64,000 bases of DNA from Polytrichum commune. Lineage: Eukaryota > Streptophyta > Polytrichopsida > Polytrichales > Polytrichaceae. Positions 3,938 through 31,600 of this stretch are shown here, piece after piece; positions within the stretch are counted from its first letter, which is position 1; the number at the start of each line of letters is the position of its first letter. The stretch lies in the NCBI GenBank assembly GCA_950295325.1, contig OX485804.1, positions 23,312,001 to 23,376,000 of the forward strand, written 5' to 3'. The position numbers were made by a program, and so were the translations under genes. A model generated the notes under the pieces. That model saw only the letters and a program-made list of their open reading frames with translations, did no database searches and was not told where the DNA came from.

Positions 3938-4215
3938 TAAGACATTTCCCCATAAGAAAAAAAAAATTCAGTACATAACAGTATTCAGATTCATAACAGT
4001 GTTCTGTGAGACTGACAATATTTCACAGAATATTCTCCATGTCAAGAATAGGTATGGGGGAATATCCAATGAAATATTCTCGGTCACACAGAACAATGTG
4101 TTGGATATGAATAGTGTTATGTACTGATTTTCAGATTACCCTAGCCAAAGCGACTTTCAACTGGGGTCCCTCGCAAAATGAACCAATTTTTTTCTAAACA
4201 AAAATGAAACTCTCT

Positions 4216-4243
4216 AACAACAACAACAACAACAACAACAACA
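4216..4243. repeat. (AAC)n microsatellite
   Basis: About nine uninterrupted AAC units. The surrounding 3,941-4,700 stretch shows no gene. Confidence 0.9.
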
Positions 4244-4714: not shown

Positions 4715-4905
4715 CCCATTAGCTAGTTGGGCTAGCTCATATTTTGCAAGCCTCAATCTAGCTATAACTGGGTTAGTTCATATATTTTAGGCCTCGATCC
4801 AGCCATAGTTGGGCTAGCCCATATTTTTTAAGCCTCGATCTAGTCGTAGCTAGGCTAGCCCATTTTTTTCAAGTATCGTTTTCAACCACATAGTTGGGCT
4901 AGCTG
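4715..4905 (+). repeat. ~42-bp tandem repeat block, left of hAT fragment
   Basis: About four to five diverged units of ~41-42 bp. Each has GGGCTAGCCCATATTTTT, AAGCCTCGATCTAG and a short linker. The same units reappear in the same orientation at 5,395-5,640, on the other side of a hAT transposase remnant, so they may be subterminal repeats of that element. Confidence 0.7.
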
Positions 4906-4995
4906 ACCTAAAAGGTTAGCTCAACTAGCTCATATGTTGAATTCAGGGAGGCGTCGTTTCATCAATAAAATCACATTTCATGTCAATTGAAAAAA

Positions 4996-5344
4996 TCATT
5001 CATCATCATCGATGTCTAATTCATGTTGCTCGCCATTCTCTACCAATGAACCGTCATCATCCTTTATATGCAGCTCCCCGTCGAAAATAAGGCGTTTCGG
5101 AATGTGATTCTTCCAATCAGAATTGTTCAGCAAGATCAAATTTTTCAAGATCGTATGGCATTAGATGTTTGTTCAACTTCAGCATCATCCACGCCTCTGC
5201 AAATCGTCCCCCAAACGATGATCTCTTTGGGGTGATAATATCATTTAGACTGCCAATGTCACATTCTAGCCCACCTGATCTAGGCTTGGATGCTAGCAAA
5301 GTGGCAATTGCTTCCGCCAAGCAAGGCATTCTAGGTTTTAGCAT
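4996..5344 (-). pseudogene. hAT-type transposase C-terminal (dimerisation) fragment
   Basis: On the minus strand, an ORF of 75 codons reads through a conserved-looking stretch with GGLECDIGSLNDIITPKR and MMLKLNKHLMP. This matches the pattern of the hAT C-terminal dimerisation region (small-residue loop, aromatic or Cys, then TPKR, then hydrophobic helix). It continues after a frameshift near 5,117 into an acidic tail that ends at a stop at 4,996-4,998. In-frame stops lie just upstream of 5,344. Only the last ~110 codons of a much longer transposase are present. The family call rests on pattern only. Confidence 0.5.
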
Positions 5345-5394
5345 TTAAAACCACAACACCTTAAAGTCAGGTGTGGCTGGGCCTTAGCTTGAGA

Positions 5395-5640
5395 CGATTG
5401 AGCTACTTGACCTATATGTAGCTAGCTAATAGTTAGTTAGGCTAGCCCATACTTTTTAGGCCTCGATCTAGCTATAACTAGGCTAGCCCATATTTTTCAA
5501 GCCTTGATTTAGCTATAACCGGGCTAGCCCGTTTTTCTCAAGCCTCGATCTAGTTATAGCTGGGCTAGCCCACTTTTTTGAGGTACCGTTTTCAGCCATA
5601 ACTCTTAGCTATTGAGTCAGCTGCTAGCCCAAAAAATTTG
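5395..5640 (+). repeat. ~42-bp tandem repeat block, right of hAT fragment
   Basis: About five units of the repeat seen at 4,715-4,905, with GGGCTAGCCCATATTTTT-like and AAGCCTCGATCTAG-like segments. Each unit contains the palindrome GGCTAGCC. The two blocks are direct, not inverted. Confidence 0.7.
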
Positions 5641-5644
5641 TGGG

Positions 5645-7230
5645 CTAGCAAATATATAAGGTCTTGACTTCTTTCACCTTCACTAGAAGGTGTCTTCTCC
5701 TTTAGGCAACTTACCAAACATGCTTAAAGTTTCCTTCACAAGGGAAGCGGATTAGATAGTGGGTGGCTCCTTCCCTTTTGCTTCTATGCATTTACTTCAA
5801 AACAAAATCCGGGTTTAAAATATAAAGTAAACTTTATAAAATAAAAGAGTACACCTCTTTGAGAATGCGTTTGTTGACGATAGGTACATATTCGGCAAAA
5901 GCCTAGCTTTCAAAGCCAAGTTGCTAGATGGGGATGCAAATGAAGCTAAATGTGTATGGCCCCTTACATTGTAGGGAAAATAGTGTACCTCTCATTCATG
6001 AAACATAAATGCTATGTAACAATATGTAGGTTGGAGATTACTTATTTAATATATTTGATGCTAAAATTAATTAATGCTGAAAATTTATGTTATGTAGAAA
6101 AATACACTATGTTTTCTTCAAATCCAACCATAGGGATGTGAACTAGACTACCATGTATTCTTGCTGTGAAATTTTGAAGTCAACCGGATCACATTTACTA
6201 GGTCAACTTCACATATGAACAAGGCCTTCATCCGGCCGCCGGGGGGGGGGGGGGGGGGGAGGGGGGCAACCAAAGAAAACTTTGCATTGTTTCATTTCAT
6301 GACCAATTATGTCATGCCACAAATTTTAGAAAGTTGGCAACTTCGCCATAATATGTTACGTGAATAACAAATGAGGTACTCTAAAAAACTTGAATTATTT
6401 TGAGCCAATATAGATGAAGTCCATCACCATCAAAGGTGGAGGAGCCACATGAGGTCATACCGGGAGATTTCCCCTATTCCACGGAGTAAGCAACATGTGC
6501 ACTAAGTTTTTATCCAAATCCATCTGATCAAGTTGTGCACAACCGTCACACCTTGTTGTACGGGAAGAAACCCCACCCCCAATTGGGCATTATATTGTGA
6601 AAGATACTGGCTCCTAACTTAGGATCCCAAATTTGGATCTTGTATTTAAGCAACACATGGAGCTGCCTCCCAAAGAAAGCAATGCCAACCTAACAAAAAA
6701 TCCTACATGCTTGGAGTATGAGATTTTTATATATTATTTTGACCCACATGGTAGTGGACGCCACCCTACACCAGTAGATACTCTTCCATCCACTTAAAAT
6801 TGCCACCTAGTGGGTCCCGAACCCCAATATAATATTAGATGGCGATCCATTTTGGGTTGCTTGAGCACTTCAAGTACTTCGCTTGCTACGAGGATAATCA
6901 AACAAAGTTATCGATAAACATTATACCTTGATTTCGACCTAGAATAATTTGCATTGCGTGAAGAGTCAACCCATTGACTAGCTCAACCTAATCTAATTGC
7001 ACACGTGAGTATACACAATTTATCTTGGCTTCAAGAACTTTGTGTGTTGCGACAATGAATAAGTTACAAGGTTCATCTCAAATTCTGCAAGTGGTCTCGT
7101 GTTGCAAATTCTGCATGGGCTACATATATAGAAGGAGGTGAGTGGAATCTACAACACTAATCATGTGCATTTACAACAAAATTCATCATTCCATGTTTGG
7201 GAATTGTGTCGGTTAGATACCAAACATGCA
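5645..7230. other. no gene seen; contains a 19-bp poly-G run
   Basis: A/T-rich DNA without coding signals. The one striking feature is a G homopolymer at 6,241-6,259, followed by A and six more G. Confidence 0.5.
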
Positions 7231-7618
7231 ATACACCATACATGTATATTTAGTGTCACCAATTCGACTTTGTCTTGCTCAATACTAATTATAAACCACC
7301 CGTCTAGTGTCACCAACACTAAATGTGAACCCAACATTATTTGTCATTCCTTGTAAGAAATGAATTGGCATCATAGATTTACAATGTTGCAATTGTTGTC
7401 AATTACTATGTTTTTCTTCATCCAAATTCCAATCATCCATGACAGTATTTCATTACATACATGTTAGGATGTAGAGTATACCAAAAGCGGATGAACTAGA
7501 AGTAAGTTAGGGTGACAATATTTGTAAACTTATTCATAAGAAGTGTCATTAGAGAAGTTACCATAATGATATAAATATTGTAAGAGACAAAGTCTAAGAT
7601 ACAATATTTAGTGTAGTA
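7231..7618 (+). mobile_element. dispersed element family R, copy 1 (diverged)
   Basis: Contains TATTTAGTGTCACCAA near the left end, GTGTCACCAACACTAAATGT and ATTATTTGTCATTCCTTGT inside, and ATTTAGTGTAGT at the right end. The same ordered blocks are at 42,755-43,109 (same orientation) and 26,736-27,038 (opposite orientation). Non-coding; the ends resemble those of family M. Confidence 0.6.
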
Positions 7619-8002
7619 TATGTGGCCATGTTGTGGACACATCCAACTCCATGTGCATGTCAAGTAGTTGGATTAGCTCGGGAACCACAAAGATTGTCAA
7701 TTTACGTTTTTCTAGGTAGAACATAGTTGTTCACGTAAGAGTTACAAGAGTTCAATGGGAAGATTTTGTTACTCTTTACATGGTCACACGGGTCCTTCCA
7801 ATTGTGTTCACTATTGATCCAAGTGAGTATAATCTATTTGTTGAGCACATTCTTCATTTCCATTATGACATATGTCTTTTTGGTGTTGGTTATTTAACCC
7901 TTAAAAGACGTAGGGTCTCAATATACAGCCAAATACACAATTTATACATGCCTCACCAAGTTCATATATATCATATTTCTATATATTAATGGGTTTGAAA
8001 TC

Positions 8003-8389
8003 TTGTATTAAACAAGAAAGAAAGAGAAACTCCGGTCTACAAGGGGCCGGCGTGAATAAAGTGTCCGTTCGTAATGCCAATGAACCCGATGGCCACTGGA
8101 CAAGGGGACACTGGGACAATACTACTCTCCCCTTTTGAGGATGGACACTATAGTGACACACTATACTAGTTCCTAGCTAGCCACTAGTGCCTTGAAGATA
8201 CCGGACATGGTATCCCCCCAAAGGGCTTTGAGGTACCCATACAACAAGGTCCAAGGACCCCCCCACCATAGTTGGGTGGACTAAGGTGGTGAGCACCACG
8301 CCGGCATGGGGAATAGAACCCACAACCTCCTCATTGGGGGCCATGAGCCTAACCACCAAGCCAAGGCCCGTGGTGCTTTGTATTAAACA
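8003..8389 (-). mobile_element. tRNA-derived SINE with 12-bp target site duplication
   Basis: The element proper is 8,015-8,377 on the minus strand (~363 bp). It is flanked by the perfect direct repeat TTGTATTAAACA at 8,003-8,014 and 8,378-8,389. The minus-strand 5' end has an RNA polymerase III A box (TGGCTTGGTGG, 8,353-8,363) and a B box (GGTTCTATTCC, 8,310-8,320) at tRNA-like spacing. The 3' end is a pyrimidine-rich TTTCTCTTTCTTTCT tail. Box spacing, tail and duplication together support a SINE mobilised by a LINE. It does not fold as an intact tRNA gene. Confidence 0.85.
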
Positions 8390-10598
8390 TTGTCATATGT
8401 CAAGAAGAAAACAAGAATATAGTTATACTTTACATTTATTATGAAAATCCACCATAAAGTATTTGCATCCAAGACCACTTAGGCCTCATATTTGTACTTC
8501 ATTTTTCACTAACATGCAGATATTTAACCGAACATAAAGTGAACTTGAACAATGAGTTTCGTCTAGAAGGTCACTTTGACATAATTAGCTTAAAATGGAT
8601 ACATGTGAATCAAATACGCATAGGTGTGCATGAAGAGACATTGTATGGGCCTCTTGGACGCCTAAGGGCTAACTACAAGCCTTGACATATATTACTCAAA
8701 TATAGCGATCCGATTCAAAATATTGACCACATAGAACTTAGGTGTCATTCTCTTTCTCCCCCTTTTTATCCCTCCTTGAATGAAACTTCATTGAATGTTC
8801 TAGCAATATGGTGAGTAGTAAAGTTAATGCATTCGTGTTAAAATTGTGCTTCCCTAGAGGATTGTGGTTGCTTCATTTCAAATGCCAGTCAATAGCGTGT
8901 CTTTGTGGTCTTTAAAAATCATATGTTAAAATAGCTAGAAGTTGTTTTTTCCACCAACTAACCATTTATATTGTGTTTTTGTTGCATGCATGAGAGGTAG
9001 GCTCATGTGCAACTATTTCCTCTTACGTACCCTCTTGCAAGTTGCCATGCAATATGTGAAAGTACATCATTACATGTTTATTATTTTTGAAATTTTAAAG
9101 ACAAAGGGAATAGTGAACAAGATACTAGCACATTTCTATGCCTCACATGAGGAGCTCCATTCCCTCAACCGGGTTGAAAGCAACTCTCTGTATGCTTTGT
9201 TTAATATGTGAGACCAAAGTTTCAGACATCATCTGTCGGCATCTCCGGCTGTAATAGTGTGAAAAGTGATGGGCCAACATCTATTTCTGAACATAATCCC
9301 CAACAATTTCACGGTTGGAACTGGACTGAAATTTTGGTGTGATTGGGGCATGCAAGCCAATTGAAGAAAACACCCACTTGGAAGGCTACGACTAGACCCC
9401 CAACTCTTTTGGTTGGGACCCATCCCTCTTACCGAGGCAAAGAGATCTAGTAAAAATGTATAGCTCGTAAATTTGTGGCTAATACATCTCAAGTATATTC
9501 CTTTGTAGTAATTTGGCGCCTTGATGTTTATTCTAAAGTCAAATCATCTAAAAAAGGTAACATACAAGCTATAATATGACTGACTTTATTTTCACCTTGA
9601 GTAAAGTTGGTGGGGCCCAATTGACAAAGGTGGGTGTCAAACCTTGGGGTGGCGGGGAGGCGAAATCACAAATCCTCATTCAAAGGTAGGTAAGGTAGCC
9701 GACCCATCCTTGATCAATTAAGCAATTCAAAATGTTTGTGGTTTAACTACGATCAAAAAAAAAGTTCCTCGTGTAGACAAACGGAATTTAGAAGCAATCA
9801 AATTTATTTTTTCATAATTGTTTTTGCAATAACCAAATTATTGTGAACTTATTGAGTAGATATTCTTTTCAACCCATACTCTTGATACCGGCTACCCTAT
9901 TTCCAATCACCGACCGGTGACAAAACCAAGAACGCTTGATTCCCGTAATCAATAATTGTGGCACCTACTATATATGCTTACAATCTAAACCTAGCCAAAC
10001 TAATTTGGATTTTGACCATGACATGTTAGTACTAATTGAACATTGACATTTTGTTGCACGGAAAGAGGTTGGCCTAAGTTGTTAAAATGGGGTGGTGCCC
10101 GGGAATGGGTCGGTACCTTATACCTTTGTAAGGCTACTCAATAATTCACCCTTTGCATTGAAATTCCTAGACTATTTAAGGTAGACAAACCCATTTCCAT
10201 TACATGTAAGCAATTTCACATAATTAAACTACAAGTGTGATATTGGTGTGAATTTTCATAGGTCTAGAAATTGATATCATAGTTACAAGTTTAACAAAAA
10301 GAATCTCAATTTATTTCCAAGTTTGGAAAATATCGTAAACTTCTAATGACAATATTTTTCTCTCTCAACCCATATTCACACAATAGGTCAACCTATTTCG
10401 GATGAGTGGAAGATAAAGACTCGAGTATAGTGAATGCCTTTTTCAAGGGACCCAAATCCATGCCCTCTTAACTAACATTTTCTAACATGCTAAATGTGAC
10501 AAGAACATGTGTGATTGTTCATAGGTTTTCCCCGTAACTTTAAAAAATGACAACTACATGTGTGGAACTTCACGGCTTCAGGGGACTCTACGTATTAA
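8390..10598. other. no gene seen
   Basis: Short random open frames only (for example 8,942-9,211 plus and 9,229-9,492 minus). None has a recognisable domain. Confidence 0.5.
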
Positions 10599-13060: not shown

Positions 13061-13914
13061 ATGAATAATCTTGATGCAATAATTGTGGTCACTTTGATAG
13101 ATTATAGAGTTTTGAATAAACTAGCCATAACGAATCGATATCCATTGCCAAGAATTGAAGATCTATTTGATCAATTGATCGGATTTCGTGTATTTAGTTC
13201 ATTAGATTTGGCTCAAGGTTATCATCAAATTCGAACTTATATCACAAGTGAACAAGGATCAACAGCCGTTGTGCATGCCTTACGAACATGGCGTTGTTAT
13301 TTAGAAGGTTCAGAATGTATAGTGATTACAAATCACAATCCATTATACTATCTAAAATCACAACATAATTTGTCAAGGCGTTAGGCTTAGTGGTGAGAGT
13401 ATTTGGAGCAAATTTTTCATTACCCATGAGAGTATTTTCATGGGAGAAGTAATGTCGCCGATCCATTAAGCAAGAACCCACTAGATGAAAAGTGGATCAT
13501 GTTAGCCTTACTAACAAGAAGCGCTTCGAGTCGTAACTCCAACCAGTGGCGGCCGACACTGGGAGGAGTGCTCCCATGGAGATGACCAACACTAGAAAAA
13601 ATCACCTTGGGTTCGACAATAAATTCTTTAATAAAATCATTGCATATTATGCTTTAGACCCGTGGTTAGAGGACCCGGTTATTTTAACAAAATTAGTCTT
13701 CAAATATATCATTTGGTGATACCAAGATGCAATTGTGATACCTCCTGTGGGTTCCCTTCAGATATTTATACTTTTTGAATTTTATGATATTTTTTATAGT
13801 AGACATATACGTATTACGAAGATCTTGAAACAAATTGAGACCAATTCTTGGTGGCCAAAATTGAGGGATGATGTCAAGACTTATGTGAAGACATGTGATG
13901 TATGCCAACATAGT
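13061..13914 (+). pseudogene. gypsy RT / RNase H / integrase zinc-finger remnant, inverted segment of outer element
   Basis: Plus-strand reading begins in the reverse transcriptase palm ([35 protein letters not shown]). It jumps by internal deletion to the RNase H end ([18 protein letters not shown]) and then to the integrase HHCC finger (WWPKLRDDVKTYVKTCDVCQ). It is cut at 13,914 by the inner gypsy element and continues in the same frame at 23,597. Confidence 0.8.
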
Positions 13915-14249
13915 TGTCACGGTATGCGGTGTCAACGGCCGCACCTTATCCGTTGGGTTTCATCCATCTAGATTTGGATGGATGAATCTTAGTTGTGGAG
14001 AGGAAGGCTCCTAAGTGAGAAGCCTCCTCCTTGGCTTGGCATTCTTGCCAAGTCAAGTCTTGTGAGTGACTGTGTGGAGAGAGCTTGTGTGAGGTGAACA
14101 TTGCATGTGTGTGCAATAAATCTTGAGTTCTTCTCTCATTTCTTACACTTTTGGATTCTCCCGTAGTGGAGTAAGATATAGCTTGACTTATTGTGTGCAT
14201 TTGAAGAGAGATTAAAGCTCTTATGAGTGTTTGACTCTCTTCCTTCTCA
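13915..14249 (+). repeat. 5' terminal repeat (B1) of inner gypsy element
   Basis: Starts TGTCACGGTATGCGG and is about 85-90% similar to 23,161-23,490 (B2), with shared landmarks GTTTCATCCATCTAGATTTG and TTCTTGCCAAGTCAAGTC. It ends near TTCTCA and has LTR-like TG...CA ends. The copy lacks the 106-bp A unit that flanks B2 at the 3' end, so the two ends of the element are not simple identical LTRs. Confidence 0.7.
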
Positions 14250-15700
14250 TTTGGCAAGAATGCTTCATTTTTTAATTTTAATTTTCTTGATTCTTGAGAT
14301 TTAACGCGCAAGGGGCTCGTGGGGGCATGGAGCGATGAAGTTCCGGAGTTTTGGAGTGGAGAAAACCACAAATTGTAGAAGCAACAAGAAGAAAAATATT
14401 TTCTTGTCAATGTCACATCAAGTTGAAGTGTGGTGACAAATTTTTGAATTTTCCACGGAATGTCATGTTATTTTGCTCACATTCAAGCTTGAATTCGTGA
14501 CATTGAGCTTTGGAAGCGGAGTTGTGATTCTAAGTGGAATTTTTTTTGACACAAAAATCAAACACAAAAAAAACAAATCAAAAAGGGGGGGGGGGGGGGG
14601 GAGAATCCTTTGGGAGTCGGAGTCCCCTGGCTCCTCCCTGGCCCGGACCCTGCTGGGTCCGCCGGCGTCTACCAGCGTCGGCCGGCTGTAGGCGGGCAAC
14701 TGCAGTAAGCAGTTGCACTGAACAACTGTTGCTGCATTTTATTTTTATTTTTATAATTAATTAATTAAAAACTAGATTTTTAATTTAATTTAATTTAATT
14801 ATTTTATGTTTCCTTTCAATCTCTAATTTTTTCTTTTGTCTCTAAGAAGTTAATTTCTTGGGATTAAGAAAGACGGATTTTTGCGGAAACTTTGTTTTCA
14901 TTAATAAAAAATACAAGGTGGAAAACCCAAAGCTCTTATGAAATATTAAGGTACTTAGGATTTCTTTTAGGGGTTGTGTTGCACGAAATTTCCGAGGGGG
15001 TGCCATTGGAGATTAGGTGACATGTGGAATTTTCGTTCAGCCTAAAATAAATTATTATTAGGATCGAATTGTGTTTGTCAACGCATATTCTCGGCATTGT
15101 AATAAGGAGGGATTCTTAGGTAGTAGTGGGGAGATGAGAGATGTGCATAGCTGCCATTTTCTTTTCATGGCAAATGAAACCCTCATTTTTTACCACCAAC
15201 CGTATGCAAGCGCCAGTTGGATGCGGTCAAATTCTGTTTATGCTAATGCGTTGTTTGGGGAAGAGGATCTAGTGCTGAAAATTGCATTGTTTTCTGTATT
15301 TTATTTTGTTACCTTTCCCCGTGGCAGGCTGTATTGCTGGCCGTTGTCGGCATTGCCCCATTTCTTGTTGTATTTGTTTGTGACAGGGTATTGTGGGAGT
15401 GAGGTCGAAGTAATGAGCGACAGGACGTTTGTGTGTACACCAAGTGGATGGTGCTTGTATTTCCTTATGGTGAGGCTGGGTTGGTGACCATCAGATCATA
15501 AGTTTGGTGGTGTTTGTAGGTGTAGGTTGTCTTTCACCTTTTGACCCTTTACCTTGACACCACATTAGTTTAGATTGTTGGCTCTAGTGACTGAACCCAT
15601 TGCGGGTTTATGGTTATAACTCGGAGCCAACATTATCCTTTTCCGTCTCCGGATCATCGGACCTTTTGGACGTTGAACCAGTGGTAGCATCCGACGAGGC
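14250..15700 (+). other. untranslated leader of inner gypsy element
   Basis: No retroviral domain is visible. It holds a 17-bp G homopolymer at 14,585-14,601, a GC-rich patch to about 14,720 and an A/T-rich patch with TTTAATTTAATTT repeats near 14,780. An open frame at 15,071-15,487 resembles nothing I know. A clear tRNA primer site was not identified. Confidence 0.5.
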
Positions 15701-15969
15701 TTTTCAGCCTACTTCTGCGTAGGGGACTGCCATTCGGTCTCACGTCCTTTGGATGGGATCCTTTGACGCGAGATGGCATCTGAGATCGATTTTCTAGTCG
15801 ATCGGGGACCATTTCTCTGCCTGATTGGAAAATTCAGTTCATAACATGGATGAGGGAGAAACGTCAATACAATACCAATTTTAACAACTGATATGCGTTC
15901 GAGCTTCTGCCTCAGCATTTAGAACACAAAGCTCTCCAGACCTATTAGCAGTGGACGGAGTCTCATTGG

Positions 15970-17175
15970 ATGGAGCTACGTCAGATGGAGCGGTACTGGG
16001 AGACTGAGGTTGAGTTGGTATCCGCATTGAAAAAAGGCGCAACTTCTACTTTGATGGTCGTTCCTGAAGTTAAGTCGGAGGTACTGGAGGGAGTATATGT
16101 GGTGGATGTGGAAGATGTTTGTCCTGGTGAATCCAAAGATAAGGGTTCTGCTCCCGCTGTGGAGAGTATGTTGAGTCCAATTGTTCCACTCTCCTGTTAT
16201 GCCAAGGCTACCCAGACGACATTAGCTTCTTTAGAAGCTCCACTAGATTTTGATCCTCTGTAGGAATTCCAACTCCATTTTGAGGAGGAATATGGAGGTT
16301 TCCGCCGAGATCAAATGCAGCGTATCGAAGACTTTCGACGGGAGAAAGAAGACACACCTCGTACCATGTACACGAGGTTGGCGAGCTTTGTCAGGGAATC
16401 TGGAGGTATTTTTGCAGAGAGCCAAATGGTGAAGGTTTTTTTGTAAAAAAATTGATAAACGTCTTATTGACTTAGCGCTGCCCATGATCATCATGGATTA
16501 TGGTGGCCGTGTAACACTTGCAGAAGTTTTCACCATTGTTGAGCAGTGTGATCGTGCCTTGTGTTAGCACGACGCCACTAACTTGATGTCCATGTTAGTG
16601 GATTCTAGCAAATTCCAAAAGGTTCCGGCTGCGGGCTTGGCGGAGGCAGAGGTGGATAAGATCTTGTATTGTTGGTCTTGTGGGCAGGCAGGCCACGCTA
16701 AGAAGGATTGTCCTTCGAAGCAAAGGCAAACCAGACTGTAGTTAATCCGAAGAGAAAACCATTTGTTCCCGCTAAGGATTCGCTGAAGGTGGCGGATAAA
16801 TATTTATCCCAGCAGTTGAAGTGTTCCCATTGTGGGCGGAACAATCGCGCGGTGGAGAACTGCTTCGCTCTCCATCCAAAGAAACGTCCTTCTTCTGATC
16901 GGAAAAAGATGTTGGAGGTGAAGATTGGAACATTGGAGGAAATGTTCAAAAGTTTGCCGTCATCCAACCAAATCTTGGACTCACCGTCCTCCTCCGGCGC
17001 TAAGGCTTGTTCTTCCACTCTGGATTATTATATGTTTGGAGCCTCAGGGGATGTGGTGAGTTCCGCAATGGTGACACGTGCTCAATCCGTGTCACGGGCC
17101 ACGTCTTCGACCACAGGGGAGTCTATGGACACCTTACAAGCTTGGGACAATGGTCGCACAGATCAGATTGGCTAG
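15970..17175 (+). pseudogene. gag region with two CCHC-type zinc knuckles
   Basis: Packages element RNA in the virus-like particle. After an acidic N-terminal part, a stop at 16,261-16,263 interrupts a capsid-like stretch (FEEEYGGFRRDQMQRIEDF). A perfect CX2CX4HX4C knuckle lies at 16,670-16,711 (CWSCGQAGHAKKDC). A second knuckle at 16,822-16,863 has Arg where the His should be (CSHCGRNNRAVENC). The knuckles are in different frames, so there is a frameshift near 16,715. The frame ends at TAG 17,173-17,175, although gypsy-like sequence continues in frame. Confidence 0.78.
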
Positions 17176-17629
17176 GCTCGTCTGCCATTATTTTTTGGCT
17201 TGGCGGATGGTGTCCAATTTTGTAGGTGATCGTCTTCGAACTTGGAGGCTTCGAATCCGGCGACTAACGTGGTGCACACTTTGGCATCCAAAATGTTGCA
17301 CACACATTTGTTTACCGCAATGGAGTGGGCATCATCCGGCATCCAACCCGCTAAGGTTTTTCACCTAGAAGGTAGAATTTTGGAAGGAGAGGCATCCCGT
17401 CTTCTTTGATTATGGCTCAAACCACCGCTGACGTTCCTATCATGGAGGATTTGGAGGAAGCGGGTAGACGATGAGCGAGGTTTGCAACAGAGGCCATTGT
17501 GTCTTTTGACGCATACGCCTCGGATGGCCAAAAACCCACTTCATCTTATGATTCACCAGCCTCTTATCTCTCAGATGTAGCTGCTCAACCTGCTCGCTAG
17601 CGTCGAGGCATTCGATCTGGCGTTGTACT

Positions 17630-18070
17630 TATGGTGAATGATTATGGCATTTTGGTGGTCAGTCAGGCTAGGGGTAACCCTATTCGAGTTGCTCCCCAGT
17701 GTGTGATGATGGATTCAGGAGCACAACCTGTTATGATCGGCAAAAACTTGCACAAAAATTGCGGTTGACGGCCGACAACTTGGCTCCTTGCCCATTTACC
17801 ATTGTCACATCAGTTGGCCTCGTGGAGCGGGCCATAGGTTATACGCGGGAACTATTATAGCTTAGCTTCCGAATGAAGCTTGGGGATCCACCTGCACCTC
17901 TTCTTCTTAGGTGTGCGGTGACGGATGCGACCAACTATGACATTTTAATTGGTCAGCAAATACTTTACCCTCTTGGTTTTGGTTTGGACAACTGGACTGA
18001 GGAGGCGTGGATCCGACCAGGTTGGTCGGCTGGGGATGGCCGCATGGAACTCATTCCTGTGGCGTTTATG
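17630..18070 (+). pseudogene. gypsy aspartic protease
   Basis: Processes the polyprotein. The catalytic DSG triplet is in MMDSGAQPVMIGKNL (DSG at 17,713-17,721). The later ILIG-type strand is in TNYDILIGQQILYPLGF near 17,930-17,980, in another frame. At least one stop (TAG near 17,862) and a frameshift separate them, so it is not functional as it stands. Confidence 0.75.
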
Positions 18071-18089
18071 GCGGCCGCTACCTTAGCAC

Positions 18090-19317
18090 CATTATCCATG
18101 GTTTTGGATGTGATGTTATTGTTGACACATTGCCCTATGGGTCCGCATTATTGGAGGAATCTTTGGCATTTATGGGGAGTATTGAGGATAAACGAGAGAT
18201 GGCACCTCACAGTACATTGGTGCGCGATTCACATGATCCTCATCTTCCTTGGCGCGATTCCGCCGAGCTATTATGGCGATGTGAGGACATTGTCCTCTCT
18301 CTCGCCTCTACGACACCGGTCATACCGGATAGCCCATCGGCGTTGGTACACCCGATTTTGTGGCGCCCGCCAAACGCGGGGATCACTTTGGTGGAACTAT
18401 TTGGGGACATTGGCACGGGTTTAGCGGCCGTATTGGAGGTTGGCCTCACGGTCAAACAGTATGTCTATGTGGACAACTCTCAAGTGTCTACCCGTGTGGC
18501 TCGTTACCATCTTCACCAGTTGATGGTATTGTACCCACAACAATTACATCCAACTGCCATTCGTAGGTGTTTTTCACGTCTCCCTCGTGATGTCACCCTC
18601 ATTAGTGAGGCCGATTTACGACACTTGGGTTTGGTGGATATGATATTTGCGGGATGGCGATGCCAGGGCCATTCACATGCTGGAGCAGGCCGAGGTCTAG
18701 AGGATCCCAGGTCTAGTCTATTTTGGGACCTCATCCGCCTCATGCAGTGGTGATTTTCCCACCAGCCTTCCCCTCCAGGGTATATCTTTGAGAATGTACA
18801 TTTGTTGAGAGACTCTCAGAACAAGGTGTTGGAAGGCGGTCATTATGTTCGTCAACACCTTGGAGATCCCAGTTTTGTGGATGCCGCGAGCATTGGTTCT
18901 TATGCCCACCGGCCTCGGTGGATTTGGACCAACCTCGCACCATCATCTACTTTCGCTGCAGCATTTTCTGCAGTGCCTCCACCTTTTGATCAGAAGGTAG
19001 ATGACATTTTGGATCCAAACCGAACCTCTTTGCCAATTGTTCGAGATGATTTACCCCCATTGGCATTGGTCAACAAAATGGGGGCACCACAGAGGGCATT
19101 TCCCACCTTTATGACGTTTCCACGGTTATTCGCTTTCCGCGATCGAGGGCCGGGTATGGTGTGGGATGCTCACACCAAAACCCACAACGAACCATTGGCT
19201 GACGAACGGGAGCGTGCAATGGGATTCCGCACTGGCACCACTGCAGCTCCTGGCCTTTCTGAGGGCCAAGGACGCTTCGTGTTGGGCCAAGCCATGGATC
19301 TTCATACTATAGTGTGA
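18090..19317 (+). pseudogene. C5 cytosine DNA methyltransferase domain fused into gypsy pol
   Basis: Catalytic domain of a DNA (cytosine-5) methyltransferase, ~312 codons from 18,379. Motif I: LVELFGDIGTGLAAVLEVGL. Motif IV: AGWRCQGHSHAGAGRGL, with the catalytic Cys at 18,661-18,663 but Arg in place of the usual Pro of PCQ. Motif VI: FENV at about 18,787-18,798. Motif VIII-like: HRPRWIWTNL. Motifs IX-X: ERERAMGFRTGTTAAPGLS, then FVLGQAMDL. Motif order is linear I to X, unlike plant DRM enzymes, which are circularly permuted. One in-frame TGA (18,751-18,753) breaks it, and the frame closes at TGA 19,315-19,317. The reading frame is the same as the downstream reverse transcriptase, so it belonged to the polyprotein between protease and RT. 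The subfamily (DNMT3-like or other) cannot be settled by eye. Confidence 0.92.
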
Positions 19318-19338
19318 ACTGTTGGTTTATGCCTTGCA

Positions 19339-19641
19339 TTGCAACGGCATCATGATGACAGGTTGTTGTCTCTGGGGGCAGAGAATTCTGGTCAGGGGGC
19401 ACAACAGTTCACATCTATGGAGGAAGGAATTGAGGTCATGGTTGGAGAAGCCGAACGAATCTTTCGATTCGAGCAGCAGGTGATGAAAGAGCTCCGAGCT
19501 CAACGGGTCTATACTGCTTTGGCTTCTCCACCTCCAGTGGTTGCTCCATCATCACATATTGGTGGTATTGAAGAGGGGATGGACTCTATTACTAGCACGG
19601 AGGTTGGGGGCATGGTTAATGCCCCCTCCTCTCAGTAGTAG
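19339..19641 (+). pseudogene. linker between methyltransferase and reverse transcriptase
   Basis: In the same frame as both neighbours, ~100 codons with a charged, helix-prone segment (EEGIEVMVGEAERIFRFEQQ) and a Pro/Ser-rich tail. It ends at tandem TAG codons 19,636-19,641, after which the same frame continues into the RT. No domain is recognised. Confidence 0.6.
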
Positions 19642-19650
19642 TTAGAGTCC

Positions 19651-20770
19651 GTGCCAGCACCAGGTGGCTCTCTTCTGGTGGAGAGGGAGACCATAGAGTT
19701 TGATGATTGGCCATTGGAATTGGGCCCTCATCTCACTGGTGTTGAGGTATGGAAAGTACGAGAATTTATTCACTCGTACCGTAGGTGTTTTGTTTTAAGC
19801 CTTCAAGATCTTGAAGGTTATAAAGGAAAACCCATCCACATTCAGTTGGAGGACGACCATTTCATTTTTTGGAGACCTTATAGGCTCAGTGTTTCCGAGC
19901 GGATTGGCGTTCAATCTCATTGCCGAGAGCTCTTGGCAGCAAGGTTAATCGAACTGTCCAACAGGGAGTATGTTTGTGCTACGGTTATGCCATCGAAGAA
20001 GGATATCTTTGGCAATTGGACGAAGAAACGGATGTGCGGGGATTACCGTCCAGTTAATCAAAAGACCAAGTCGGATCGGTATCCCATGCCAATCCCGGAG
20101 GAGTTGTTTGATGCCATCGGATTTTCTTAAGTCTTTAGCACCATAGACTTGAGATCTGGCTATCACCAGCTCCCATCACTTGCGGGAGATCGAGTGAAAA
20201 CTACATTTTGGGGAGTTGATCATGATGGGAATGATCAATTGTATCATTGGAAATTTCTTCCATTTGGCCTAAAAAATGCATCTGTTGAGTATCAGAGAAT
20301 GATGGACCAAGTTCTCTCTGGCTTGCCCTTTGCTCAGTGTTACATTGATGATGTAATCATTTTTAGCAAGACACCATAGGAGCATGTAAGGCATCTGAAA
20401 GCCATTTTTGAGCGGTTGCGGTGGTGGGGATTGCGTTTGCACCATGGCAAAGTACAAGTTTTTCCATGACCGACTAGCATATCTAGGTCATATGATTATT
20501 CTAGGAGGTCTTGGAGTGCAGCAAGCTAAGGTGGACACCTTGCAGAAGATTTCAACACTGGTCGATGTGCCGAGACTTCGTGCTCTCTTGGGCTTGGCGA
20601 ATTACTATCTTCGATTTGTCAAGAACTTTAGCTTGATCACCAAGCCTCTCACCATTCTCACGAGCAAAGACCAACCGTGGACTTGGGGTCGTGAGCAACA
20701 ACAAGCATTTGAGACATTAAAGCAGAAATTGGGTACGGCTTCAGTGCTTCGACGTCCAAATCTTTCAAGT
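19651..20770 (+). pseudogene. gypsy reverse transcriptase
   Basis: RNA-dependent DNA polymerase. Fingers: MCGDYRPVNQKTKSDRYPMP. Palm: FSTIDLRSGYHQL. Catalytic box YIDDVIIFSK, with YIDD at 20,341-20,352. Thumb: ALLGLANYYLRFVKNFS. Stops at 20,128-20,130 (TAA) and 20,377-20,379 (TAG); the thumb lies in frame 2 after a shift near 20,440. Motif spacing is that of Ty3/gypsy. Confidence 0.92.
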
Positions 20771-21200
20771 TGCATATGGACTAGAGTTCCTTGGGTTTTG
20801 GAACACTTTTCACTCAGAGTGATGACTTTGGCCGGGAGTATGTTGTTGCTTACGTATCGCGAAGTAACAACACGGCGGAGGCCAATGATTCGTCCTATGA
20901 GGGAGAAGCATTGGTGGCGGTGTGGGCTATTGCCCATTTCCGGCCATATCTTTATGGTCAGCGCTTTACTTTGGTGACTGACCATCAACCGTTACGGTGG
21001 CTCATGAAGTTGGATAAACACACTGGCAAGCTCGTCAGATGGGCTTTGTTGCTCCAGGAGTACGACTTTGAGGTGGTACATCATGTTGGGATTACCAACC
21101 TGGATGAAGATGGACTCTCACGCAATCCAAGTGCTTCGGATGAGGACTTGACCGGGGCCATGTGGCATAGAGATTGTGATCGAGAGGCGGTTCCAGGTTG
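20771..21200 (+). pseudogene. gypsy RNase H
   Basis: Removes the RNA strand after reverse transcription. It returns to frame 1, with SSYEGEALVAVWAI, then FRPYLYGQRFTLVTDHQPL, then RWALLLQEYDFEVVH, and ends with the usual gypsy tail containing GLSRNP. A stop and shift affect only the first catalytic strand near 20,775-20,800. Confidence 0.88.
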
Positions 21201-22590
21201 GTACGCGGTTGCTTACCTCATTCTATTTTCTGGTGCAGCTGTTGAGGTTCTGATGCAGGGCTCGAATGATGAGACTGATCGACCTCAAGTTATTGCGGAT
21301 ATACGGGAAGATCTTCCCGTATTACATAAGCTCCAGCAGGGAACCTTTCCTTCGTCTACCTCGGCAACGGAAAGAGACAGGATTGAACATCGAATAACAA
21401 GGTTCCGTTGGAAGAACGGTTTGTTATTTCGATTGTGGTCGGATAAGACAAGGCGTATTGTCCTTAGACCAGATCAGAGGGTCTCCTTGGTGCGACAAGT
21501 GCACGAGGAACTTGGCCATTTTGGGATACGCATGACACATTCAATGTTGCGTGGCCAATATTGGTGGACTGGCATGTATTAGTAGGTGGCTGCTTATGTC
21601 GGGAGGTGTGAAGTTTGTGACCGAGTCAGGTCTAGCTTTAATACCTTGTCACCTCAGTTACAACCCTTACCTATCATGGGATTGGACTACCGTTGGTCGC
21701 TGGACTTTGCGGGATCGTTGGTTGTTACGCCACATGGAGCAAAGTACGTGTTGGTGATGGTGGAGCATTTTAGCAAGTGGATTGAACTTGTTGCTTTACC
21801 CCAAAATTCTGTAGAGTTGGCTGCGGCCGCCTTTTTGGATCGTGTGTTGGCACGTTTTGGAGCACCGGCTGAGGTATTGACGGACCAAGAGAAGGAGTTC
21901 ATCGATGCTTTTGAGGAGTTGTGCACTAAGGCGCTCATAGATCACCGCACCACCTTTCGGGATCATCCGGAGGCGGATGGCTTGGCTGAACGGGTTGTTC
22001 AGACAACCAAGCGTGGCTTGAGGAAGTATGGATTATTTTGGGGGAGCCACCGGGATTGGGATCTTATGTTGCCTTGGATTGCTATGGGCTATCGATTTAG
22101 TAGGCATGCCTCTTTGGTGTCCTGCAGCCCGTATTAGTTGTTGTATGGACGTGAGCCTATACTCCCGAGTTCTATTCAGGAGAAGCTAGCTCTTGTTGTT
22201 GACTTGGATGACCCAAACATTTGGGCAGAGTGTTTGCAAGAGCAGGCTCAATTATTCCAGAGGGCCATGCCTATGGCCATGAAGAATTTGTCCATTGCTC
22301 AGCACCGTGACACATTGTGTTATGCACGCATTCGCAGTGGTGCTTACCGACCTCAGTTGCAGAGATTCCGACAAGGGGACTATGTTTATCTCCAACATGA
22401 GGCGCCTATGACATTGGATGTTAGGGCGGGGCGCACTATCCTTCGGGTGAAGGAGGTGTTGCCGAGTGGTTTGTTGTTGTTGGAAGACAAGGATGGCAGG
22501 GAATGTCGCAGGCATTCCAAAAACTATGCCCCATGTCATCTACCCATTGAGGGTACAATTCATCTTGAATTGGCCGTCGTGCCAGAGGGT
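21201..22590 (+). pseudogene. gypsy integrase
   Basis: Inserts element DNA into the host. N-terminal HHCC finger: HEELGHFGIRMTHSML, then CEVC. Catalytic core with Asp in SLDFAG, Asp in VLTDQEKEF and Glu in ADGLAERVVQ, giving a D-D-E triad. C-terminal barrel-like part: FRQGDYVYLQHEAP. Stops: tandem TAG at 21,580-21,585 and TAG at 22,135-22,137, otherwise one continuous frame. The chain then runs in frame into the PHD-like module. Confidence 0.9.
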
Positions 22591-22596
22591 CTTCCA

Positions 22597-22731
22597 TGTT
22601 TTGTGTGTGGAGATAAGAAAGGAGCGGCTACTATACTCTTGTGTGACCAGTATCAACATGGTTGATACTTGGCATGCTTGAGGCCACCCTTGACTTCTCT
22701 ACCATCTGAACAATGGAGTTGTCCTCGCTGT
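22597..22731 (+). pseudogene. PHD-finger-like module at integrase C-terminus
   Basis: In the pol frame after integrase: CFVCGDKKGAATILLCD, then GWYLACLRPP, then WSCPRC. Spacing and the LLCD, GW, CLRPP and W.CPRC landmarks are those of a C4HC3 PHD finger, a reader of histone tails. Two zinc ligands are changed (Cys to Tyr after LLCD, His to Tyr after GW), and the Trp codon before the latter is TGA (22,663-22,665). The pol frame ends at TGA about 22,774. It sits where chromoviruses carry a chromodomain. Confidence 0.75.
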
Positions 22732-22774
22732 CGAGGATCTTCGGTACTTGGTGCTTCCACCAATCGTATTCAAT

Positions 22775-23052
22775 GATCATGTGTGGCTTTCATCTTGTAC
22801 CCAAATGAAAAATAAGGAATTATGGCTTAGAGACGCAATCAACATGAGGCGGTGGATTTAATTATTTGGTATTTGATGCCTAAACATCAAAGGCGATTAA
22901 GGATAGGGCTCACATTGCACCCAACCTACAATTCCTCATAATTATGTTTACCATACTAGTTAGTTGCGGAAAAATCCTTCATTACCCATGTCCTTTGGAT
23001 TGGCATTGGTCCTAGCTGCTTGGCGGAACTCCATATTTAGCTGAGGGGGGCA
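22775..23052 (+). other. 3' untranslated region and polypurine tract of inner gypsy element
   Basis: Non-coding stretch ending in the purine run GCTGAGGGGGGCA, followed directly by TGTCAAGG. This is the usual layout of plus-strand primer and 3' LTR start. Confidence 0.65.
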
Positions 23053-23596
23053 TGTCAAGGTATGTTGTTTATGTGTGACTTTGCTATGTTTTAGTGTTGT
23101 TTGTTAGTGGTGGTTGGTACTCGAGTTGCAGTGACACATGATCGCTATTTACACGACAACTGTGACGGTATGCGGCGTCGATGGCCGCACCTTAACCGTT
23201 GGGTTTCATCCATCTAGATTTGAATGGATGAATCTTAGTTGTGGAGAGGAAGGCTCCTAAATGAGGAGCCTCCTCCTTGGCTTGGCATTCTTGCCAAGTC
23301 AAGTCTTGTGAGTGAGTGTGTGGAGAGAGCTTGTGTGAGAAGAACATTATATTTGTGTGCAATAAATCTTGAGTTATTCTCCCCTTTCTTACACTCTTGG
23401 ATTCTCCCGTGGTGGAGTGAGAGATAGCTTGATTCATTGTATGCATTTGAAGAGATATTAAAAACTCTTATGACTCTCTTTCTTCTCACATGTCGACGTG
23501 TGTTGTTTATGTGTGACTTTGCTATATTTAAGTGTTGTTTGTTAGTGGTGGTTGGTACTCGAGTTGCAGTGACACACGATTGCTATTTACACGACA
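23053..23596 (+). repeat. 3' terminal region of inner gypsy element: A1-B2-A2
   Basis: Three parts. A1 (23,053-23,158) and A2 (23,491-23,596) are near-identical 106-bp direct repeats with TGTC/GACA ends and a shared GTTGTTTATGTGTGACTTTG. B2 (23,161-23,490) starts TGTGA and ends TCACA and matches B1 at the 5' end. The simplest reading is one 544-bp LTR with an internal direct repeat, starting right after the polypurine tract. Other readings are a recombinant LTR or a solo LTR with a duplication. Confidence 0.6.
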
Positions 23597-23840
23597 TAGT
23601 AAAGCCTCTATTATAAGGATGACATGACTATTGCAACCTTTAGAAATTCTTGAAAAGAAATGGGAATGTGTTAGTCTTGATTTTATCCTTAGACTAACTC
23701 CCACAAAATAAGGGTATTATGCAATATTGGTGTGTGAGGATAAATTGAACAAGATGGTTTATGTTCAAGATATACCAAATCAAAAAATTTCAAGTGTTGT
23801 TGAAAATTTATATTCATCACCCCTTGGGAAAATTGCAGGT
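23597..23840 (+). pseudogene. outer gypsy integrase fragment, continuation across the inner insertion
   Basis: Continues in the same frame from 13,914: the finger end CDVCQHS is followed here by KASIIRMT, a stop, then EKKWECVSLDF and DKLNKMVYV, the first strand of the integrase core. This shows that 13,915-23,596 interrupted a once continuous integrase gene. Confidence 0.78.
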
Positions 23841-23859
23841 ACATTAGTCAATTCAAAAT

Positions 23860-24350
23860 TCAAAACTTTGAATTGATAATGGCCAAAAGGTATTCTGAAT
23901 GCAGTCTTGGGTACATCTTCTTCTAAAATTCAAATTTGATGATAACCTTGAGCCAAATCTAATGAACTAAATACACGAAATTCAATCAATAGATCAAATA
24001 GATTATTAATTTTTGGCAATGGATATCAATTCTTTATGGTTAATTTATTCAAAGTTTTATAATCTATCACCAATCTTAGTCCACCATCTTTCTTTTTAAC
24101 AAATAAGCTTGGTGATTCGTAAGGTAAAGAACTTGGTTTTATCCACCCCTTGTGATATATTTTGTAAGTTGCATTTTGGCTTTTTCAATCTCCAAAGGAT
24201 TGAGTCTATAAATAGGTCTAAAAGGTGGTTGATGACATTTTTCTAATGATATAGTATGGGCCATCTCTCTCTCTCTCTAGTGGAAGCCGTGCAAATATGG
24301 GTTGAAATATATCTTCATATTCCTTCACCAAAGACTCTATAAGATTATTT
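23860..24350 (-). pseudogene. gypsy reverse transcriptase fragment (outer element)
   Basis: Minus-strand translation gives [15 protein letters not shown], then YPLPKINNLFDLL, then [16 protein letters not shown], with stops. It covers the same part of RT as the plus-strand piece at 13,061, so the inversion in the outer element also duplicated this segment, or two related copies recombined. A short (CT)n run is at about 24,269-24,283. Confidence 0.72.
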
Positions 24351-28656: not shown

Positions 28657-31600
28657 TCAATCACCGTCCGAGTCGCAAAGCTCGGAGTCATCTACCGATG
28701 CGTCGTCCGGTCCCTCTAGACATTCTAATGCCTTGGCAACCACTCCTGGCCCTACTTCCACTGCATCGCCCAATACGGGTGTCTTCGGTACGATATCGTC
28801 ATGTAAGGCCATCACTTGTAATCCGGGAAAATCAGAAGTCCTACCTAGTGCTATGCATTGTACTTCATCCGTTCTTTGTTGTTTGGAGAATACCCGAACC
28901 CCTCTCGGTTCCTTACGCAAAACAACTTCCCATCCACTCTTCGCGACGTCAGGTGCAAAAAAAACTTGTTCGATATGGAGAAGAAAAACAAATGATTGTG
29001 CTGAGTAAGGAATCAATCTGTCAAAGTTTACAATGGTGAAACCATAGTCATCGCGCTTCATCGTCGCCCCATCTCCCGTAATGTTTGCAACGACCCAATT
29101 GCAATAGAGGACCACCACCTCGAAGAATCCATAGTCCACAGAGAGTATTTCCTCAACCCAACCCACATACTCCAACTCCGCTGCCTTTGGATTTGTGTCC
29201 TTCAGGCCCGAGCGACATAATTGTCGAAATGTTGCGGCCACCCCAGAGTCCATCGTTGTCAATTGCGCCTGTGCGCTTCGGACACGGATGTGGTTTCCAA
29301 ACGCATACATGGATCGATACGACTTCGCTGCATCCGATGGAGGTAACATCAAGGCCCTAACGTCTTCTTGTACCTCCTCAGTCCCTTCTTCTATGGCGCG
29401 CACCACTGTTTTTGGAAACCAAATGTGGAAATCCTCGTCGCGCAACTCCGTTGGGTACATTACCCGCGCCTTCCGCTTCTTGTGCCTGTATTCGTGCCGC
29501 TCACATTCCCGCCGTGACATGTCATCCTCGTGTTTCCTGTATTTTGGATACAGTCCAACACATCATTACCCGTGACATTCTGAAATCACTAAGGGCAGTC
29601 ATATTATGCATACAGCAGTAGTCGTACAGTGTCGCGATAACTACAACGAAATGCATATTTTACGACTACATTTTGTGATTGTACTCAGTCATATATCCCA
29701 AAATATGACTGAGTGTAGTCATGAATTTTGGTCACAAATGATGAGTTTTGTTGTAGTTCGTATGGATTGGACTGTTGTTCTAAGAGAGGTCATGCATTTA
29801 AGGTTCTTCCACTAAAATGTGAACTCATCTCCTCCACTCTTCCAGTGGTGCCGCATTGTTCACCACGAACTCATGTATCCATTGTCGAAGGTCAGATGGG
29901 AGATGACGCGCCCGCCTGGCACCTTCGAGGATCTCATCATACATTGATGGGTCTTCTTTGTCATCCCACACTCTTCGAGTGGTGATTGTAAATTCTTGCA
30001 TATATTCCGTACAAAATCCCAATGCCTCTACTATGGCGTAGCCTTCAGCCATGCAACCCTCTGGTCGAGTACGGTTTCGGACATACCCTTTGAGAGTCTT
30101 CAGGTACCTCTCTATAGGGTACATCCAACGTGTATGTACGGGTCCACAAATTTCCACTTCCTCCACGAGATGCAGGACCAAATGGCTCATGATGTCAAAA
30201 AATGATGGCGGGAATTCTTTTTCCAACATGCATAGTGCTATGGCCGCTTCACACCTCATCTCATGTATTGTTGCGGGATCAATGGACTTAGCACACACCC
30301 TCCTGAATACACGGCTCAACATTATTATTGATGTCCGCACTTCCTTTCCCATTGTGCAGCGCACACATAGTGCCAACACTTGCTGCATGAGGACATGGTA
30401 GTCATGGGATTTCAGGCCTTTCATTGTCCCATCCACGTTTATGCGCTTCTTCAACTGTCTCACAGTCCCACAGTCCCACATAGTAAGTGGGGGTTCGCAA
30501 TGCACGCACTTGCTCCACAAAGACTTCACACTCTTCTTTCGTCATAACGTAAGAGGACCGAAGTAGAATCACGCTACCGGGTTTTGTTCCTGCTACGGGC
30601 CAAAGATGCGGGCGTATACCCGCCTCCTTCATGTCTAGATGAACTCCAATTGTATCCTTCTCTCCAAATATGGTTTTCATCACATTCTCAGCGATGTTTT
30701 TCTCACAGTGCATAACATCCAGTGTGTGTCGAATTAGAAGATCCTGCACAGTGACTCGAGCCAGTGAGAAATTTGCCGGCGCGAATTACAATATCACTAC
30801 GTGCAATCATGTGACTGTACATGACTACGTCCACTCACATAATACTCATAAGCAATATTACTATATGCAATCATGTGACTACGTCCAGTCACTTAATTCG
30901 GCTAATAATATACACGTACTTTCCAGTATGGAAGGTCATATAGACATGTCCTCCTCTTCACTCCATGATTGTGTACGGGGTCTGTCGTCTGCCCAGTTTG
31001 GTTTCTGTAGTGTTTTTTTGTCCACTCTTCTCGCTCATTCGCATATCGCAATTACTCTCGACCACTCATCCTTCTTGGCGGTGGTCTCATCTCCGGCTGC
31101 CCATCAAAATTGGACCTCTGTCGTCTCCATTGGTGGGTCATTGGCAATTGTCGTCTATGTCCAAGGTAAACATTCTTTTTTAACGCTTTGGAACGCCGTG
31201 TTGCCACGTTGGGGCCACACACGGGGCAAGCCCTATGTCCTTTTGTTACTTGCCCGGAAATCAAGCCATACGCCGGGAAGTCGTTCACTGTCCACAAAAG
31301 CATGCCATGTAGCTTAAATGTTTTCTCTTTGGAGTTTCCTTGCGATCCGTCCAAGCAGTCGATCCCTTTCCAAAGCTCTTGGAGCTCCTCAATCAAAGGT
31401 GTCATGTACACATCCACATTCCTGTCCTTCACACTCTCTTTTCCTGGTATGATTAGCGCAAGCATCATGAAGAAGTTTTTGGTCACTAACCAAGGGGGGC
31501 GATTGTAGTTCAGCATGACCACGGGCCAAGTAGAGTGGCTGAGACTTTGGTTCCTAAATGGATTTACGCCATCCAGTGCAAGGCCAAGCCTAACGTTCCG

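Follow-up and report, generated by a model that had tools for sequence, protein, structure and literature searches.

A decayed Ty3/gypsy-type retrotransposon of Polytrichum commune carries a DNMT3-like cytosine methyltransferase and belongs to a large land-plant family

The window, i.e. the whole stretch of DNA analysed, comprises 64,000 nucleotides of Polytrichum commune (assembly GCA_950295325.1, contig OX485804.1, positions 23,312,001 to 23,376,000 of the forward strand). Positions 13915-23596 are occupied by a whole, decayed Ty3/gypsy element, in which a DNA cytosine-5 methyltransferase (MTase) domain is preceded by a protease and followed by reverse transcriptase (RT), RNase H and integrase; leaving the MTase aside, this is the PR-RT-RNase H-DDE integrase order of Ty3/gypsy elements. 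Its features are listed below; L017 is a related element from another source, F1 and F2 are two groups of genomic copies, and A and B are the repeats of the element.

13911-13914: left target-site duplication; TAGT is found at both sides.
13915-14249, plus strand: repeat A1, left end (TGTCACGG...), 89% identical to 23161-23488.
15784-17397, plus strand: gag, with several stops and frame changes (tblastn of L017 ORF1).
17382-18142, plus strand: protease region, broken (tblastn, L017 ORF1 residues 413-666; PF13650 in relatives, below the cut-off in L017).
18379-19302, plus strand: C5 cytosine methyltransferase, DNMT3-like, with one internal stop (PF00145, relatives, alignment, structure profile).
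19636-19644, plus strand: conserved-stop site between MTase and RT; TAG TAG TTA here, TAG CAA TTA or TAG CAA TCA in relatives.
19648-20767, plus strand: reverse transcriptase, broken (tblastn of L017 ORF2, 76-79% identity).
20785-21065, plus strand: RNase H (PF17917, E 4e-26).
21472-22137, plus strand: integrase H2C2 and DDE (rve) core, with a stop inside (PF17921, E 6e-9; PF00665, E 7e-14).
22597-22743, plus strand: C-terminal PHD finger of the integrase, interrupted by the stop 22663-22665 (18.2 bits, below the cut-off of 24).
23043-23052, plus strand: G-rich polypurine-like tract (GAGGGGGGCA) directly before B1; similar in F1 and F2 copies and in L017.
23053-23158, plus strand: repeat B1 (self-comparison).
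23151-23168, plus strand: B/A junction, ACACGACA-AC-TGTGACGG in the window; ACACGACAGCTGTCACG in L017 and in the first sample's 15 A-coding-B-A-B copies.
23161-23490, plus strand: repeat A2 (self-comparison).
23491-23596, plus strand: repeat B2, right end (...ACACGACA) (self-comparison).
23597-23600: right target-site duplication, TAGT, pairing with the left one.

The element is in decay: in a tblastn comparison with L017, gag is scattered over several pieces and frames, and MTase, RT and integrase are interrupted by stops. The piece 19642-20130 of the RT region has by itself no Pfam match, the Rfam scan of the window gave 0 matches, and NCBIfam gave a generic dcm model under its cut-off and one weak protease row. 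When the flanks are joined with a single TAGT, what we read as an older gypsy integrase continues in frame, with ...KTCDVCQHS and KASIIRMT meeting at the join; this uninterrupted frame and the TAGT at both sides indicate that 13915-23596 entered precisely, as a single insertion that duplicated 4 bp of its target, and thus that the element opens with A and closes with B. The insertion is old, since A1 and A2 differ by a K80 distance of 0.10, and B1 and B2 by 0.07. The host site (13095-13914 and 23597-24142) reads as the integrase of the older gypsy element; inverted gypsy RT fragments are found beside the MTase element at 13095-13238 and 23822-24142, and a long G run is present in its leader, at about 14586-14602.

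Other features lie farther along the window. On the minus strand, 28657-33606 is a CACTA-type transposon (tnp2 transposase, DUF4218, DUF4216), and directly upstream, on the same strand, an ORF at 32998-33606 contains a SET domain; a DNA transposon may here have captured a histone-methyltransferase-like domain. Two peroxidase genes, at 44198-47217 and 53151-56401, form a direct tandem duplication and are 79-93% identical in blocks; a peroxidase exon has 1105 relatives, and those with names among the best 120 are from seed plants, at about 60% identity. Of 42 dirigent matches 41 score above the family cut-off, and 14 control genomes give no signal; dirigent proteins are a land-plant family, and these matches, the peroxidases and a permuted DRM-like gene (see below) agree with a land-plant host.

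The earlier note on this DNA, made from the letters alone, had read a C5 MTase domain inside a Ty3/gypsy element, and the profile search that it proposed bears this out. Translation of 18001-19314, with X at the internal stop, matches PF00145 over the domain at 18379-19302 with 42.2 bits (E 9e-11), the cut-off being 22 bits, and a protein search found 42 relatives. The first piece (18001-18750) by itself reaches 32.9 bits (E 6e-8), and the second (18754-19317) has by itself no Pfam match. The canonical order of motifs, I-IV-VI-VIII-IX/X, which the note had also proposed, was recovered by alignment and is unpermuted. The frame consists of two parts, 18001-18753 and 18754-19317; a TGA at 18751-18753 interrupts the domain and another, at 19315-19317, ends the frame, while motifs I and IV are altered with respect to the relatives, motif IV reading WRCQG, and the catalytic motifs are thus not intact. 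Because of the two TGA codons and the altered motifs, the MTase copy in the window is a pseudogene.

The element in the window is a dead member of a large land-plant family of Ty3/gypsy type. The genome (407.8 Mb in 64 contigs) was searched with the 187-aa C-half of the window MTase; of 494 first-look candidates 150 were scored, all matching and the window included, and these are spread over seven chromosome-size contigs of 42 to 78 Mb. Identity to the window is 75-90% for most of them (F1) and 61-63% for a second group (F2), and a few are intermediate. An uninterrupted frame of at least 1340 aa was found in 26 places, namely 15 of the 150 matches and 11 more among 149 matches obtained with a DNMT3A query; these were counted by hand, with no stop allowed within the match, and one broken copy was omitted from each list. 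Twenty copies, picked for long frames (some of them shorter than 1340 aa), were retrieved: ORF1 and ORF2 share a common frame and the MTase lies between protease and RT. A typical F1 copy has an ORF1 of 1366 aa, a stop and an ORF2 of 1048 aa in the same frame, and in F2 the lengths are 1386 aa and, where open, 1047 aa; the family coding order is Gag-protease-MTase in one open frame, a stop, and RT-RNase H-integrase-PHD in the same frame. Hence the younger copies that the note had suggested looking for, with open frames and the protease-MTase-RT order, are many, and neither of the outcomes that it named as contrary, lack of a profile match and lack of other copies so flanked, turned up. One F2 copy, L049, has an internal duplication inside its A repeats and yet a matching 4-bp target duplication, ATTG.

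Outside this genome the nearest named MTase relatives are from liverworts, with annotated Marchantia and Calypogeia proteins that contain the domain (6 named rows of 33); of the 42 protein relatives, the first has 76% identity and covers 83% of the query, and the second has 85% identity and covers 67%. Scans for relatives gave 16 loci in IMG/VR and 6 in GTDB; the sole match to the whole query is L017 (89%), the others being short stretches. L017 is contig CADCWO010000201.1, filed as a cyanobacterial MAG, and its positions 1-9285 read as an entire gypsy-MTase element, so that it is probably a mislabelled eukaryotic contig. Its ends overlap by 127 identical bases, which fits a circular assembly path and is not proof of circular DNA; ARAGORN on L017 reported none, and the junction pattern had 0 matches in IMG/VR. 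More divergent gypsy-MTase proteins vary in arrangement: in P0190, P0192 and P0193, all with PHD, the MTase precedes the integrase, and in P0190 and P0192 it follows RNase H, while P0036 has the order RNase H-MTase-G-patch; the Pro of motif IV is replaced by Glu in P0036, P0040, P0184, P0188, P0190, P0192 and P0193.

A profile of the MTase compared with solved structures scored highest with DNMT3A/B/C chains, at 58-72 bits (DNMT3A up to 72), followed by DRM chains at 35-45 (4onj 44.5), HhaI at 36, HaeIII at 35 and DNMT2 at 16.5; 4onj and 4onq are taken by us to be DRM structures, the former of tobacco DRM. No chain named DNMT1 or CMT occurs in the best 60 of the 61 structure matches, and the MTase ranks closer to DNMT3 than to DNMT1, CMT, DNMT2 or bacterial enzymes. 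In a tree of 40 rows the family and fragments of DNMT3A/B split from three bacterial or viral rows (99/97), with long branches (3.3 for the DNMT3 branch). Direct descent from permuted DRM enzymes had been excluded in the note on the ground of motif order, and indeed the family MTase is linear and so not a simple DRM descendant; a separate DRM-like host gene, named from its permuted motif order, is located on the same contig as the window (C2) at about 4.703 Mb. Its exon is the only host gene recognised in the rows inspected among the 149 DNMT3A-query matches, where no host DNMT3 was seen.

In motif IV, WPCQG is present in 48 of the 56 relatives with a script-readable motif IV (73 relatives in all), and both WPCQG and FENVP are found in L017 and in nine of nine listed F1/F2 ORF1 frames, from copies picked for open frames. 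Within F1, for copies also selected for open frames, dN/dS is 0.238 for gag, 0.238 for protease, 0.464 for the linker, 0.245 for MTase and 0.863 for the tail that follows the MTase (10 copies, 45 pairs); for 7 copies (21 pairs) it is 0.047 in RT, 0.118 in RNase H, 0.233 in integrase and 0.417 in the C-part of the integrase; the PHD finger gives 1.6 on few changes (7 copies, 21 pairs). Between F1 and F2, where synonymous sites are near saturation, the values are 0.12-0.13 for MTase, about 0.04 for RT and 0.11-0.14 for PHD. These ratios suggest that the family keeps its MTase under selection. The PHD finger is evident at the end of L017 ORF2 (PF00628, 44.7 bits, E 1.4e-11), and its full ligand pattern is kept in five of seven F1/F2 copies, L036 and L040 having lost a zinc ligand. 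CpG depletion is not seen in the coding part of the window element, with an observed/expected ratio of 0.71 against 0.50-0.71 in other parts of the window (0.38 in A1 alone); thus there is no sign of self-methylation there.

It had been proposed that the MTase lies in the RT frame, between protease and RT. Frame and position stand, but the coding region is not one open frame: a stop interrupts it at 19636-19638, and the same stop occurs in intact relatives. Its context was found in 17 of the 20 retrieved copies, as TAG CAATTA in 12 F1 and TAG CAATCA in 5 F2 copies; the script found no such stop in the other three, L032, L043 and L045, and L017 has TAG CAA TCA at the same point. Within 10 kb of each of five copies tested, in-frame TAG-CARYYA is unique to this stop. 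Among 20 relatives longer than 1200 aa, 13 stop at the same place after the MTase, as judged by eye; P0169, P0180 and P0181 also terminate downstream of the MTase, their tails being different, P0184 is uninterrupted from MTase to RT, and the gene model P0183 extends into RT. UAG-CARYYA is described, in a passage of PMC5382211, as the type I readthrough signal of tobamoviruses, and the motif of the family is identical to it; here, however, it lies between the MTase and RT of a retrotransposon, and its leakiness is predicted from the motif. Given a stop in this context between MTase and RT, the MTase should be produced at Gag level. The MTase had been called part of a polyprotein; it is indeed encoded by the element, but a probable leaky stop places it with Gag and not in Pol proper, and the window copy is dead.

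The integrated ends of the family are unusual for Ty3/gypsy elements, since identical LTRs at both ends are not found. In 17 of the 20 retrieved copies the ends are TGTCACG...ACACGACA (TG...CA), with matching 4-bp target duplications that are all different; 15 of these copies have the form A-coding-B-A-B and two, L038 (ATAC) and L041 (GAAT), the form A-coding-B. The ends of L046 and L047 were not resolved, and in L032 the only match, with an altered start, is 913 bases away and was not counted. A B end before the A1 start is absent in all 18 copies with a start. A second sample consisted of the next ten copies by score whose match has no stop, the right end being read first: five end in B-A-B (one with B2 cut short), three end after B1 and in two no repeat was found. 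For seven of these eight the left end was read, and in six it matches the duplication predicted from the right end. The remaining one, which has the form A-coding-B, agrees at 3 of 4 bases. A-coding-B thus accounts for 5 of the 25 copies with a readable right end in both samples. When one mismatch is allowed, the junction ACACGACAGCTG... is found in every one of the 15 A-coding-B-A-B copies in the first sample. ACACGACAGCTGTCACG, searched as a pattern with 14 of 17 letters fixed, occurs in 15 matches and L017, the window and L093 deviating from it; the core of the junction, GACAGCTGTC, is perfectly palindromic and lies within the LTR-like repeat.

In L035, L037, L040 and L048, A1 equals A2 and B1 equals B2 within each copy, while between L035, L037 and L040 the A repeats have 1, 6 and 7 differences in 332-333 sites, and A of L048 differs at 4-8 of about 430 sites from that of L045 and L050; in older copies, L031 and L043 among them, there are 7 differences within and 8-23 between. 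Since the repeats are alike within and unlike between copies, both appear to derive from one template per round, as in LTR elements; gene conversion between repeats would have the same effect on A1 and A2. Among the A-coding-B copies, L038 is 0.37% and L041 0.41% away from its closest kin, so that both are as young as other copies; recombination between B1 and B2 is a possible alternative source of this form. A G-rich tract precedes B1 in F1, F2 and L017. No clear tRNA primer site, with no conserved TGG, was found after A, where the sequence starts ACTTGGCAAG in F1 and ACTTGACAAC in F2.

The overall explanation that we favour, with a probability of about 0.7 and as read from sequence, is that of a gypsy family with its MTase at Gag level through a leaky stop, with self-methylation, tethering by the PHD finger and circle integration. 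Most ribosomes would stop at UAG, giving Gag-PR-MTase, and few would read through to make polymerase and integrase; the DNMT3-like enzyme would thus enter particles at about Gag level and would methylate the new double-stranded DNA of the element, CpG first, before or at insertion, and the PHD finger would tie the integrase to histone tails. The note had likewise supposed that the element might methylate DNA of its own or of the host, which stands as a hypothesis. Reverse transcription from a site after A, with the purine tract before B, would give a B-A repeat at each end; the DNA would close into circles with one or two repeats, and the integrase would cut the palindromic B/A site within the repeat. 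We infer integration from such circles, opened at the palindrome, which would explain both integrated forms. A cut at GACAGCTGTC would leave 2-base extensions, usual for retroviral ends. That a DDE integrase inserts circular DNA through this internal palindrome, and that an MTase packed at Gag level could mark or protect the circle, because CpG sites flank the cutting site, is a tentative proposal to which we give somewhat less than an even chance. Circle integration was once proposed for retroviruses and given up for linear DNA, according to a passage of PMC11054761.

Elements of the PAT/DIRS type have split direct repeats in the order A-coding-B-A-B, with an internal junction that equals the joined ends, and use a tyrosine recombinase without target duplication; end-to-end copying of the full RNA is the route proposed for them. 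The family shares the split direct repeats and the junction equal to the joined ends, but has an rve (DDE) integrase and 4-bp duplications, and PF00589 was absent from the ORFs scanned. Its permuted ends might arise without circles, from an A1-to-B2 RNA copied end to end, with A-coding-B produced by recombination of the B repeats, which are 106 bp direct repeats able to recombine; the repeat order and the five A-coding-B copies of 25 agree with this. However, A1 equals A2 in young, mutually different copies, for which end-to-end copying needs gene conversion, L038 and L041 are as near their kin as the A-coding-B-A-B copies are, and the tyrosine recombinase of DIRS/PAT has no counterpart in the ORFs scanned with Pfam, a DDE integrase being present instead; we consider this route rather unlikely. 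Less likely still is that the MTase has ceased to be a DNA methyltransferase and has RNA as its substrate, serves to bind nucleic acid or is carried along as a passenger: constraint on it is weaker than on RT (0.245 against 0.047) and some related proteins have Glu for the motif IV Pro, but its dN/dS is well below 1 and equal to that of gag and protease, and WPCQG and FENVP persist in all the listed open frames and L017. A bacterial or viral Dcm-type gene, or a contaminant merely near gypsy debris, was rejected on the genome search and structure-profile scores. A relative, P0007, is annotated as a bacterial MAG protein and the L017 record is labelled as a cyanobacterium, but L017 itself reads as a gypsy element on what is probably a mislabelled eukaryotic contig, the 150 scored matches lie on seven chromosome-size contigs, the retrieved copies share the ORF1/ORF2 frame with the MTase between protease and RT, and DNMT3 scores about 36 bits above bacterial enzymes; the chance of such an origin is negligible.

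The closest known systems are the gypsy elements of Klebsormidium with a Dnmt3-like MTase and A-coding-B-A-B repeats (KnitGypsy-Dnmt3), reported in the relevant passages of de Mendoza et al. 2018 (PMC5890265). The present family resembles them, as described there, in its gypsy domains, in the unpermuted Dnmt3-like MTase within the coding region, in the repeat order and in purifying selection on the MTase; a homologous K. nitens protein, P0041, has 35% identity. Accordingly, the element could be of that kind in every respect, with the host as sole novelty. We regard this as rather unlikely, since P0041 groups with P0191 on a long branch, and the passages of PMC5890265 on this element place its MTase in the Pol polyprotein ORF and make no mention of a leaky stop, a PHD finger, target duplications or a repeat-free form. 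Compared by description with that text, the family differs in being found in a plant genome with 150 scored matches, in the MTase on the Gag side of UAG-CARYYA, in the PHD finger, in TG...CA ends with 4-bp duplications and in a second form without repeats. The same passages report that no methylation was seen in yeast with the sole gypsy enzyme of Klebsormidium to have been assayed, a result that the authors call inconclusive, and that SymbioDIRS-Dnmt3 and SymbioLINE-Dnmt of Symbiodinium are also C5-MTase retrotransposons, the DIRS repeat order being similar; these differ in being a DIRS element with tyrosine recombinase or a LINE, and are separate captures (PMC5890265). A general mention of DNMT3 members in streptophyte retrotransposons occurs in a passage of PMC12344493. 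The integrase tail of the present family calls for a further comparison: it carries a chromatin-reading module at the integrase C-terminus as chromoviruses do, but this module is a PHD finger (L017 ORF2) and not a chromodomain. Chromoviruses are Ty3/gypsy elements with an integrase chromodomain.

The earlier note held that a land-plant gypsy copy would extend what was known; this agrees with a review (PMC6338049, in the passage concerned) according to which land plants lack transposon-encoded methylases, but databases already contained annotated proteins of Marchantia and Calypogeia that have the domain. In titles and abstract starts of the open-licence PMC literature we found no land-plant gypsy element with a C5 MTase, no PHD finger on such a gypsy integrase and no circle-type integration of the family; as far as searched within that literature, novelty lies in the plant family and the data on its copies and repeats, in where the stop is placed, in the PHD finger and in the two integrated forms with their precisely defined, permuted ends.

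Cytosine methylation is a main silencing mark against transposons, and yet a plant transposon encodes its own C5 MTase, the activity of which is predicted; the family that carries it, with the MTase apparently under selection, occupies at least 150 places of one genome. The position of the MTase before a probable leaky stop makes a measurable prediction on dose, and with permuted ends in two forms the integration of circular DNA by a DDE integrase becomes testable. Copies with identical repeats suggest recent activity, and thus the response of host methylation to this family may be observable in living plants.
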